Assembly: GCA_030700255.1 (NCBI GenBank)
Contig: JAUYJN010000043.1
Location: 80,785-122,242, forward strand
From: Candidatus Peregrinibacteria bacterium
GTDB taxonomy: Bacteria; Patescibacteriota; Gracilibacteria; UBA1369; JABINC01
Length of the DNA stretch: 41,458 nt
Reading direction: 5' to 3'
Position numbers and translations under genes: made by a program. The notes under the pieces are model-generated. The model ran no database searches and was not told the DNA's origin. It saw only the letters and a program-made list of their open reading frames with translations. This document shows positions 5,822 to 26,852 of this stretch, in pieces (position 1 is the stretch's first letter; each line of letters starts with the position of its first letter).

Positions 5822-6118
5822 TTATTTTTTTGATTCTGGTCGGAAGAAAATCCATAGATATGCCAATAAACCTATTGCGGCGCCAATCATAAATCCTAAA
5901 GCAGATGTTCCTTCCCATCCGATAAGCCCCAGAAATTCGAATGGATTCTGACAGATCGTAGAGATACCTTCTATAACACATTGATCAGGGATAAAATTGA
6001 TGGCGAGCAGACCCAGTATAAATCCAAAGATAGCGCCTATTAATGTGAATAATTGGATTTTAAGAATCAAAAAAATAATTTTCTTTGATTTTGATAGTTT
6101 GTTGTAAAATTGCTTCAT
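5822..6118 (-). CDS. Small membrane protein with two transmembrane segments
   Basis: A 98-residue protein with a basic N-terminus (MKQFYNKLSKSKK), a long hydrophobic segment (about 14-42), a short loop with two cysteines (DQCVIEG and STICQNP) that could form an external disulphide, a second hydrophobic segment (about 68-92, ALGFMIGAAIGLLAYLWIFF), and a charged tail. I do not recognise the family. The gene sits alone between two attC-like elements, as a one-gene cassette would. It has no SD. The sequence between 6119 and 6145 is a short AT-rich leader. Confidence 0.6.
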   Translation of the reverse strand: MKQFYNKLSKSKKIIFLILKIQLFTLIGAIFGFILGLLAINFIPDQCVIEGISTICQNPFEFLGLIGWEGTSALGFMIGAAIGLLAYLWIFFRPESKK

Positions 6119-13043: not shown

Positions 13044-13118
13044 GGCCCGTTCGTCTAGTGGTTAGGACGTCAGGTTTTCATCCTGGTAACAGGAGTTCGA
13101 TTCTCCTACGGGCTACCA
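13044..13118 (+). tRNA. tRNA-Glu (anticodon UUC)
   Basis: A 75-base cloverleaf. Acceptor GGCCCGT pairs with ACGGGCT (first pair G-U), the D-arm is TCTAGTGGTTAGGA, the anticodon stem TCAGG/CCTGG encloses loop TTTTCAT (anticodon TTC at 13077-13079), the T-arm is AGGAG-TTCGATT-CTCCT, and the discriminator is A. CCA is encoded (13116-13118). It decodes GAA/GAG. Confidence 0.95.
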
Positions 13119-13152
13119 TTCTGTAATTTAAGAAATGGTAACTCAAAAATAT

Positions 13153-13227
13153 GGCCCGTTCGTCTAGTGGTTAGGACATCAGGTTCTCATCCTGGAAACA
13201 GGAGTTCGATTCTCCTACGGGCTACCA
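13153..13227 (+). tRNA. tRNA-Glu (anticodon CUC)
   Basis: 75 bases, nearly identical to the tRNA 34 bases upstream. The anticodon loop is TTCTCAT (anticodon CTC at 13186-13188). It differs from the first copy by the base before the anticodon stem, the wobble base and one variable-loop base. CCA is encoded. A tandem duplication followed by an anticodon change explains the pair. It decodes GAG. Confidence 0.95.
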
Positions 13228-24547: not shown

Positions 24548-26200
24548 TCAGTAAACTTCTTTTTTGTAGCACGTTTCGCAAAAGATTTTTTGCCATGAAT
24601 CGGGAGGGTAGGTTGTCCATGTTTGTATTGTGCATTTCTCACAAGGGCGTTGCCAAAACTTTCTTGGATTACGCATTTGCATGCGCGCACATCTTCGACA
24701 GTTGAAGCAGTAGCTTGGAAGCGGATAATTATTTTGTTTGTAAAATTTCAATTCTTTCGGTGTGATTTTGAAGTTTTTTTTGCAATGTGAGCAAGCGAGT
24801 ATTTCTTTCACTATGTCATCAGAAGTGTAATTGATATCATCGGGAATTTCCGTGATGGTTTCTTTGCCGAACGTGCCCGGAAGTTCATCTTCCCACTTCC
24901 AACCTTTTTCTAAAACTTGTTCTTTTGTCATAGGGTACCAAAGTTGCGCCATAGTTTCATTGTATGCGGTATGACTCATATTGATTGGGAAAAATTCTCC
25001 ATATGAACCATCGGTTTTCATTTTTTCAATTATTTTCGGTAAAAGTTCAAAATATTCTTTCTCCGAATATTGTTTGTTTAATATGCAAAATTTATTTTTT
25101 TTGAGTCCGATACACCCGAAACAATTTGAGCTGTTATTGTATGTGTTGATACAGTATTGCACGTCTGACGTCATACCAATGCAAAGAATACCGAAGAGTA
25201 TTTTGTAAACATCCGATCCAATCATGGCCCCTTCATAGCAAAGTTCGGCGTTATTGCCGAATTGATACAAATCGTAACAATGACGTGTGCCAAGTTGTAC
25301 TTGGCTTACGAATTTTGAATCTTCGATGTTGTTGCAATCAAAACAGTAGAAAGAATTTTTCGCCTTGATGAGATGGTCTCCCGATGAGTTCTCGATCATG
25401 GTATTTTGCAACGCTTTGAATCCGAAATCTTTTAAGAGCTCCATGTATCGTTCCCAAAGTTTTTGTACTTGAATTTTTGAACTCGTATTTATTGTTGTAA
25501 TTTTTTTCGTATATTCTTCTTGTGTCATTTGTTCATTCAGGAAGCAGAATTTTTTATTGCGCAGTCCAACGCACATAAAACAATCCGTGCAACCTATACA
25601 GTCGCGCAAAAATCTTGAGCTTGCACTGTTGAAACAATCTTGCGACCATCCGAGATCGTAGCAATTTTCAACGTCTATGCATTCATAGCAAAGTTCCGAT
25701 TCGAATGCGTTGTGTATGTCAATGCAGTTTTTATCTTTTTTTACTCCGTATCCGTACATGCAATCTTCGTTGTATGTCGCATGAAATATAAAATAGCAAT
25801 TTTTATTTCGTCCGGCATGATGAGTGTATTCGCAATTTTCGTCCATTTCCGTTGAGACTGTCGGATGCGGAATCCTAAGATCAAGTTCGTGAAATTGCTC
25901 AAAAAAAGGACGACTCAAATCAAAATCTTGTTCGTAGTCTGTCGGGTTGTACGCATCCGACCACCAGCACTGTACACAGTATCTTGTACGTGGATTTTTC
26001 GGATTGAACTGACTTACGGTTTGTTTCTTGCAGTTTGCGCATGTGTCGGGGTAGAGCACCCCTTCGTTGCACCAAGCCATACGTCGCATCTCACGACATG
26101 GCGGACACCAAGTCGGTTCCGGCACATCGACTTTCAGATAAAAAGCGCGGTCATCATCGGTTACCTCGAACGCTTGTGTACAATTTATGCATTGTTTCAT
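24548..26200 (-). CDS. Large cysteine-rich zinc-ribbon protein with internal duplication
   Basis: A 550-residue protein with over 40 cysteines. The N-terminus has paired CxxC ribbons (CINC at 4-7, CPPC 32-35, CANC 54-57, CVQC 75-78). The C-terminus repeats the theme (CSHC about 470, CFNCRRC about 498, CEKC 520, CETC 541). The middle (about 120-385) consists of short Cys/aromatic repeats such as NKNCYFIF, NEDCMYGYG and VENCYDLGWSQDC, like a right-handed beta-helix. A module occurs twice: CFMCVGLRNKKFCFLNEQ (207-224) and CFGCIGLKKNKFCILNKQ (360-377), each followed by an EEY/KEY helix. Likely a cytoplasmic zinc-binding structural or nucleic-acid-interacting protein. I recall similar proteins in CPR genomes, without known function. 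It ends in TGA and follows the small lipoprotein gene by 9 bases. Confidence 0.72.
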   Translation of the reverse strand: MKQCINCTQAFEVTDDDRAFYLKVDVPEPTWCPPCREMRRMAWCNEGVLYPDTCANCKKQTVSQFNPKNPRTRYCVQCWWSDAYNPTDYEQDFDLSRPFFEQFHELDLRIPHPTVSTEMDENCEYTHHAGRNKNCYFIFHATYNEDCMYGYGVKKDKNCIDIHNAFESELCYECIDVENCYDLGWSQDCFNSASSRFLRDCIGCTDCFMCVGLRNKKFCFLNEQMTQEEYTKKITTINTSSKIQVQKLWERYMELLKDFGFKALQNTMIENSSGDHLIKAKNSFYCFDCNNIEDSKFVSQVQLGTRHCYDLYQFGNNAELCYEGAMIGSDVYKILFGILCIGMTSDVQYCINTYNNSSNCFGCIGLKKNKFCILNKQYSEKEYFELLPKIIEKMKTDGSYGEFFPINMSHTAYNETMAQLWYPMTKEQVLEKGWKWEDELPGTFGKETITEIPDDINYTSDDIVKEILACSHCKKNFKITPKELKFYKQNNYPLPSYCFNCRRCARMQMRNPRKFWQRPCEKCTIQTWTTYPPDSWQKIFCETCYKKEVY

Positions 26201-26209
26201 TTTTGAAGA

Positions 26210-26533
26210 TTATTGCTCGTCAACTATTACCTCTTCTTTGCCACCTATGTTTTTTACATTACCCATAGCTGTGTCGATAGCATCTTTTGCTTCTTTGACG
26301 GTTTCAACGGCATCTTTGATAGAGTCGGCAGTTTCTTTTACGTCGTCTATAGTTTTGCTTACATTTTCAACCGCCCCGTCGATTGTTTTTTTAGTTTCTT
26401 GGATTTTTTGAGTGGCGTTATCTTTTGCGTTAGTGATGTCACTTTTGATTTGGTCGGCATTAAACCAGCTGCAACTGCTAAATGTTAGTATTGAAACCGC
26501 TATTAGCAGTAGGGAGAAAGCTTTTTTATTCAT
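26210..26533 (-). CDS. Small helical lipoprotein
   Basis: A 107-residue protein with a lipoprotein signal (MNKKAFSLLLIAVSILTF) and lipobox SSC, with Cys at about residue 21. The mature part is one long amphipathic helix of 11-residue-type repeats (DITNAKDNATQKIQETKKTI, later VKETADSIKDAVETVKEAKD), like LEA/apolipoprotein-type helices, with an acidic tail. It probably lies along the membrane surface. It overlaps the end of the zinc-ribbon gene by 8 bases and is 9 bases from the Cys-rich gene, so the three look like one operon. Function unknown. Confidence 0.72.
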   Translation of the reverse strand: MNKKAFSLLLIAVSILTFSSCSWFNADQIKSDITNAKDNATQKIQETKKTIDGAVENVSKTIDDVKETADSIKDAVETVKEAKDAIDTAMGNVKNIGGKEEVIVDEQ

Positions 26534-26852
26534 TTATTTTTATTAAAGAGTCTATGTTTCCGTTGAAATTTTGTAAGAAATTATGCATATCGAGTACTTC
26601 ATCAGAACTTATGCTGTCACCCATTTTCCAATAATTTTTGTTACGTGCTGAAATTCTGCGGTGTTTACGTTCTATATGCACATTTATGATTATGCTTTCA
26701 CTGCATTCTTTGCAATTTGCGACGAAAAGACCTGTTTCATGGGTTGTTCCAACGATTTCTATTTTTCGCTCAGCATACATTGCTTCGCAAGATGGGCATT
26801 TGAGGTCTTGGCGAAGTTGTCTAAGTACTATTTTTAATTCAAATAAATTCAT
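26526..26852 (-). CDS. Small zinc-ribbon protein
   Basis: A 108-residue protein with one zinc ribbon: CPSC at about 19-22 and CKEC at about 47-50, separated by two beta strands (ERKIEIVGTTHETGLFVANC). The rest is helical and basic in the middle (ERKHRRISARNKNYWK) and acidic at the end. The ribbon plus basic patch would fit nucleic-acid or ribosome contact, which is an inference. It is first of a three-gene unit with the lipoprotein and the large Cys-rich protein, which may share metal-dependent regulation or timing. Confidence 0.65.
   Translation of the reverse strand: MNLFELKIVLRQLRQDLKCPSCEAMYAERKIEIVGTTHETGLFVANCKECSESIIINVHIERKHRRISARNKNYWKMGDSISSDEVLDMHNFLQNFNGNIDSLIKINE

Follow-up and report, generated by a model that had tools for sequence, protein, structure and literature searches.

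An expanded family of cysteine-rich proteins with zinc modules mostly parallels one VirD4/TrwB/HerA-type ATPase in Patescibacteria genomes

The gene P0001 encodes one member of an expanded family of Cys-rich proteins whose presence and absence mostly parallels that of one ATPase, which points to an undescribed two-part system. We regard the link between the family and the ATPase as very probable and well supported, whereas what the two do is inferred. Our main reading, to which we give a probability of about 0.45, is that the family members are cytosolic adaptors or clients of a dedicated soluble ATPase of the VirD4/TrwB/HerA class. The main interest of the locus is the large protein and not a three-gene unit; this protein opens onto an expanded, motor-linked family. 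Among the matches listed from the open-licence literature searched, no published description of the family or of its ATPase link was found.

P0001 lies in the window, by which we mean the whole stretch of 41,458 nucleotides that was analysed, in a genome of 1.37 Mb that is 97% complete. The gene (24548-26200, minus strand) encodes 550 aa with 40 Cys in the order zinc module, core, core, helical stretch, zinc module. It is preceded on the same strand by P0003 (26526-26852), a small zinc-ribbon protein of 108 aa with four Cys in two CxxC motifs, and by P0002 (26210-26533), a protein of 107 aa. The preliminary description had placed the three genes in a row with an overlap or a 9-base gap, and this arrangement was confirmed: P0003 and P0002 overlap by 8 bases, and 9 bases separate P0002 from P0001. 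It had also taken P0002 for an amphipathic helical lipoprotein; the helical lipoprotein holds, with a signal-like start that ends in FSSC. The GC content of P0001 is 0.393 compared to 0.379 for the window, and its third-position GC is 0.414 compared to 0.295-0.373 in four neighbouring genes. Since both contrasts are too small, a recent transfer of P0001 is not called. Elsewhere in the window a tRNA-Glu pair (ttc, ctc) stands side by side at 13044-13227.

Zinc-ribbon-type ends and a duplicated core rich in Cys and aromatic residues had been proposed for P0001, and both were recovered. The N-terminal module (residues 1-82, 25955..26200, minus strand like all features that follow) is a double treble-clef-like zinc module with a basic stretch at residues 32-56. 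The C-terminal module (residues 461-550, 24551..24820), with its basic stretch at 498-522, is homologous to it: the alignment of residues 1-112 with 440-550 scores 116 against 33 ± 6 for shuffled sequences, and none of 500 shuffles reached 116. P0001 retains all four predicted zinc sites, with 16 of the 16 expected Cys of the Cys4 sites present. Between the modules lie core 1 (residues 112-232, 25505..25867), which carries a 12-residue Cys repeat, and the homologous core 2 (residues 269-385, 25046..25396). Here residues 100-245 align with 246-405 at a score of 125 (shuffles 34 ± 6, 0 of 500 reaching 125). The short module described earlier as present twice was found again by internal comparison at residues 207-230 (CFMCVGLRNKKFCFLNEQMTQEEY, 25511..25582) and 360-383 (CFGCIGLKKNKFCILNKQYSEKEY, 25052..25123), and is part of this larger duplication. 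Cys exactly 12 residues apart occur in P0001 at positions 123, 135, 147, 159 and 171, and a Cys-Cys distance of 12 is found 785 times in core 1 of 116 family members, compared to a mean of 178 in 200 shuffles. From this period a solenoid or β-helix core is plausible. AlphaFold predictions were of low confidence both for P0001 with the relative L009 (pLDDT 30) and for the core with four other segments (34.5), and a search of solved structures with P0001 gave only LIM-type matches at the C-terminal module. No named family in Pfam, NCBIfam, PHROGs or PADLOC covers the whole of P0001, in agreement with the earlier claim.

The conserved parts of the architecture were compared over these 116 members, all of at least 480 aa, for which paralogs were sampled per genome and the L009 and G001 entries stand for one gene. 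Most members keep one zinc site per end, as the site 4/7/32/35 consists entirely of Cys or His in 100 members and 520/523/541/544 is intact (Cys or His) in 106, whereas the sister sites 54/57/75/78 and 470/473/498/501 are intact in only 32 and 36 members, respectively. Mean conservation is 0.58 and 0.62 for the zinc modules and 0.64 for the stretch behind the first module, compared to 0.52 and 0.49 for the cores and 0.31 for the linker between them. A net basic charge was found for stretch 32-56 in 113 members and for stretch 498-522 in 115; the whole C-terminal module is net positive in 114, the whole N-terminal module in only 77. The cores are acidic, with a net positive charge in no member for core 1 and in one member for core 2.

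Matches to P0001 were found in 29 of the 40 genomes searched (that of the window included), with 1-32 matches in each. The window's own genome has 17, or 19 by profile search. Beside the window copy, seven genes are located on contig C4 within 22 kb (27.8-49.6 kb), contigs C37, C10, C32, C26, C8 and C15 carry a single family gene each, a split copy gives two matches on C35, and C28 holds a match to the zinc module only. A search of 379 genomes of the phylum gave 50 with a match at E 1e-10, in many cases by the C-terminal zinc module alone, while matches with E below 1e-100 are found in 30 genomes, 22 of them in the window's class and eight outside. The distribution of the family is patchy, and its genes often form tandem arrays, with up to 15 full-length genes in 40 kb of G276. 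All 65 neighbouring family-gene pairs less than 400 bp apart are co-directional, with a median gap of 20 bp. In four genomes the family makes up about 2.3-3.1% of the genome when every match is counted as a full gene. On C4 of the window's genome (L010, L011), what we take by eye to be toxin-antitoxin-like pairs and Fic-like genes lie between the family copies.

The ATPase was identified by clustering of the neighbouring genes. From 331 ORFs of at least 80 aa (overlapped ones removed) in 30 stretches from 16 genomes that had been selected around family genes, two families recurred in at least 10 genomes: TrmB-type regulators (18 in 12 genomes) and an ATPase of about 750 aa (11 in 10 genomes, one of the 11, in G276, being a different paralog). 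Genome-wide background for this recurrence is limited to the ATPase and, in the window's own genome, to TrmB. There, four of seven TrmB matches are no further than 1.5 kb from a family gene, and stretches this close to one make up 4.4% of the genome (p 1e-4). TrmB is not obligatory for the family, because G284, with nine family matches, gave none to TrmB. Among the family-neighbour clusters shown, no integrase, relaxase or transposase was recognised by eye. In the window's genome the linked ATPase is encoded at G000:C4:51344-53578, outside the window and on another contig than P0001. The linked ATPase contains a VirD4/TrwB-type ATPase domain with Walker A and matches PF02534, PF10412 and DUF87 above cut-off, and the nearest solved chain to its profile is TrwB (E 8e-4). 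The roughly 310 N-terminal residues of the ATPase from the window's genome gave no Pfam match.

Family and ATPase occur together in three overlapping sets of genomes. In 22 chosen genomes, among them those in which the adjacency was first noticed, the long ATPase (at least 788.7 bits) is present in 16 of 16 family-positive genomes and in none of the six others, of which G025 has a zinc-module match only. In the 40 genomes it was found in 24, all of them family-positive, and in none of the 11 family-negative genomes (Fisher p 1.9e-6, ignoring kinship). Within the window's class, where as in the phylum the best one to three candidates per genome were scored, an ATPase above 1000 bits was found in all 22 strong family-positives and in none of the 15 others (p 1e-10, which again ignores kinship); the three tests share genomes. 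G358, counted as negative in the class set, carries core and zinc module as separate genes, and its ATPase score is intermediate (676 bits). Both states are found within the families f2, f3, f4, f7, f14 and f18 and the genera g14 and g50, and in these mixed taxa the Cys-rich family and the ATPase switch together, except in G037 (f4) and G017 (f2).

Five family-positives of the 40 genomes are below the ATPase cut-off. In G008 (C97) and G005 (C140, C5) partial matches with a high score per residue were found, two of them starting at a contig end, and these resemble fragments of this ATPase created by breaks in the assembly. G037 (97% complete, two family matches) is without the long ATPase and belongs to the same genus as the ATPase-positive G030. 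G017 has a single weak family match and G022 (f11, 80% complete) weak family matches, both without the ATPase. Outside the class, four of the eight strong family-positives (G052, G331, G299 and G364) take ATPase score ranks 23-26, and the other four (G194, G381, G389 and G406) have a form of about 500 aa or scores no better than those of family-negative relatives.

The two genes are also close to each other. In 14 of 24 genomes the ATPase gene has a family gene at a distance of no more than 1.5 kb, where at most 1.43 such genomes are expected (p 3e-12). In the other 10 no family gene is found within this distance; the window's own genome is one of these, with a family gene 1.7 kb away. G052, outside the class, has 177 bp between the two genes. 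In G015, G026 and G034 a core-only gene (310-318 aa) follows 4-66 bp behind the ATPase gene, and in G015 and G026 a zinc-module gene comes next. G358 shows the order ATPase, zinc module (99 aa), core (347 aa), and the same split of core and zinc module is found in the window's genome on C35, a contig of 3.3 kb without the ATPase. The occurrence of split and fused forms beside one motor speaks for a joint action of core, zinc module and motor. A two-core Cys protein of 301 aa (L135, G224) has as neighbours a gene that by eye is sigma-like and an ATPase relative with a membrane anchor.

In the main reading P0001 would be one paralog of a set of cytosolic, metal-stabilised and probably rod-like proteins that work with one dedicated soluble ATPase, each paralog being an adaptor or client that could take the place of another. 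A solenoid rod would be built from the acidic cores. With the basic stretches of their zinc tips the proteins would hold on to nucleic acid or attach to the motor, by which the ring-shaped motor would be directed to particular targets; alternatively, protein rather than nucleic acid may be what the basic tips bind. Old and distinct paralogs would supply several specificities, and the neighbouring TrmB-type regulators may set which copies get made. In a wider form, which we put forward tentatively and hold for possible rather than probable, this would be a cytosolic two-part system of Patescibacteria, in which an anchorless coupling-type motor uses up to about 30 old and distinct, zinc-tipped Cys-solenoid proteins, 2-3% of the genome, as exchangeable recognition rods for nucleic acid or for host or phage proteins.

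The linked ATPase lacks an N-terminal membrane anchor: none of 24 linked ATPases has a hydrophobic stretch there (19-residue mean at most 1.11 in the first 300 residues), in contrast to six of seven related ATPases, in which an N-terminal stretch reaches 1.68-3.03; the seventh gives 1.30. In the ATPase of G358 a single stretch, at residue 166, is moderately hydrophobic (1.53). Because of the missing anchor a cytosolic role is favoured over classical secretion coupling, and we consider it possible but unlikely that the ATPase acts as a coupling protein by which the family members pass, as effectors or adhesins, into the type IV secretion machine with which Patescibacteria live on host cells, with copy number and diversity reflecting host range. 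Such a role would fit the matches to VirD4/TraD coupling families and the many diverged copies, both scattered and arrayed. It would also fit the published count (PMC12102498) of 5,713 homologues of VirD4-type coupling proteins in 2,918 genomes of Patescibacteria, of which no more than 148 lie near virB4; the same work leaves other functions for these homologues possible. However, P0001 has no membrane stretch by hydropathy, and only 3 of the 116 members reach a 19-residue mean of about 1.6 or more, two of them at the N-terminus. In addition, the members are conserved end to end instead of combining a constant signal with a variable payload, and Cys-rich proteins with zinc sites would suit the reducing cytosol.

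That the Cys-rich family and the ATPase come and go together in a patchy manner inside families and genera would also be expected of an anti-phage or anti-mobile-element system, in which a HerA-like motor and a variable recognition bank are gained and lost as a block in islands. The toxin-antitoxin-like and Fic-like genes between the C4 copies are in line with this, as are ATPase matches to the defence models mad8 (5e-13) and HerA (7e-6), although the ATPase fold in general may account for these two. PADLOC gave no match for P0001 or P0003, the two TrmB proteins match CRISPR-associated regulators only weakly (best 9e-6), and in the scanned family members neither a nuclease nor any other toxic domain was detected. 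We judge defence to be rather improbable.

The relationships among the copies bear on whether their number is a matter of dosage. Same-genome members form only 6 of 39 terminal pairs in the tree, and among the 105 members for which a paralog from the same genome was sampled, 87 have a closer relative in a different genome (11 members without such a paralog are left out of this count). The family copies are old and distinct, and because 87 of 105 are closer to another genome's copy they are not dosage duplicates. This is opposed to a metal or thiol store in which the Cys-rich cores hold metal, copy number sets the dosage and the ATPase link reflects shared island ancestry. The 40 Cys of P0001 with their regular CxxC spacing would suit a store, but many members have other residues in place of core Cys (only 36 of 116, for example, have Cys at position 123) and family and ATPase are jointly absent in several families, so that we find this explanation very improbable.

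A viral origin of the family was considered and is unsupported. A comparison of P0001 with phage and plasmid records gave one weak phage record and no plasmid. One viral contig (L040, IMGVR_UViG_3300025030_000857) carries at 5853-5966 a core-related fragment of 38 residues, with 59% identity in its best segment, located at the end of the contig next to a gene that by eye is tail-sheath-like; the other viral-contig scans gave nothing beyond this fragment.

The two small genes of the locus have a different distribution. P0003 gives a single match per genome in 35 of the 40 genomes searched (the window's included); the 11 genomes in which the P0001 family is absent all have it. P0002 is matched in 20 of the 40 genomes and stands directly beside P0003 in 19 of these 20, in family-positive and family-negative genomes alike. 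The co-occurrence proposed in the preliminary description thus stands for P0002 and P0003, but P0001 is unlinked from the pair in relatives. P0001 directly follows the pair in at least two genomes, the window's own and G001 of the same genus. The G001 gene is identical to L009, from a Candidatus Peregrinibacteria MAG, which with 79% identity is the sole relative found in the named genome collection. Ten P0003 neighbourhoods (L053-L062, about 1.5 kb on each side) were inspected by eye. Only that of G016 contains a P0001-type gene, one gene further on, while a PHP-like gene is found in five, a gltX-like gene upstream in six and a pta-like gene downstream in six, four having both; these names, like others assigned by eye here (ackA, xfp, folC, tsaB), are what we take the genes to be. 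P0003 and P0002 are a conserved neighbour pair outside the motor-linked system, and P0001 is a guest that would have been inserted beside these genes of a host operon. The earlier view of one functional three-gene unit, for which the overlap, the 9-base gap and the same trio in G001 speak, is largely refuted by these distributions and retains hardly any credibility. The widely conserved couple of zinc-ribbon protein and lipoprotein (window 26210-26852), often near gltX or pta and without an assigned function, merits a study of its own.

Genomes of Patescibacteria are streamlined. The upkeep of 15-30 old paralogs together with a dedicated motor in such genomes suggests importance to the dependent lifestyle. 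One VirD4-type clade now has a concrete candidate partner, and its role becomes directly testable.

Among known proteins, the Cys repeats of the core resemble those of short Cys-repeat proteins of Campylobacter (Eucampyvirinae) phages (PHROG 15341), for which 11 matching places were found in the window's genome and none in 14 control genomes. The likeness to phages is weak (best E 5e-3 for Campylobacter, 3e-4 for a stretch of a Flavobacterium phage), and the annotated Campylobacter phage proteins of 141 and 186 aa are too short for the whole architecture of P0001, so that the repeats could be convergent. The Campylobacter phages WX1 (L075) and CPt10 (L077) encode short, weakly core-like proteins with 41 and 26 Cys, and the depositors' notes on CPt10 mention an insect-antifreeze repeat and a TNFR signature. 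In the Flavobacterium phage FL-1 (L076) the core-like stretch is out of frame with the annotated gene, which has no Cys. The insect antifreeze protein (PF02420) is a β-helix of 12-residue turns and has the 12-residue Cys period in common with P0001, which gave no PF02420 match in a Pfam scan at E up to 1.

The terminal modules of the family match the zf_Tbcl and zf_Tbcl_2 profiles (PF13451, PF23477; TIGR04272, CxxC-x17-CxxC). P0001 itself reaches 20.7 bits with a profile of this type, below the cut-off of 27. Of 25 members, 20 match zf_Tbcl_2 and six zf_Tbcl (E up to 0.01), and the stand-alone modules beside the ATPase score 30.4, 32.4 and 15.1 bits, two of the three above the PF13451 cut-off of 24. 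Unlike zf_Tbcl proteins, the P0001 family has a module on either side of a duplicated core, and the Cys4 site that most members retain is not the same one of the two at the N-terminal and at the C-terminal end. HerA-type defence combines the HerA motor with a nuclease, Sir2 or a similar effector; in contrast, the family members scanned contain no effector domain and the HerA model match is weak. The linked ATPase shares the domains PF02534, PF10412 and DUF87 with the coupling proteins VirD4, TrwB and TraD and with HerA, but scores far below the NCBIfam cut-offs of the named coupling proteins, and unlike type IV coupling proteins it has no N-terminal anchor and its gene often stands beside the Cys-rich family.
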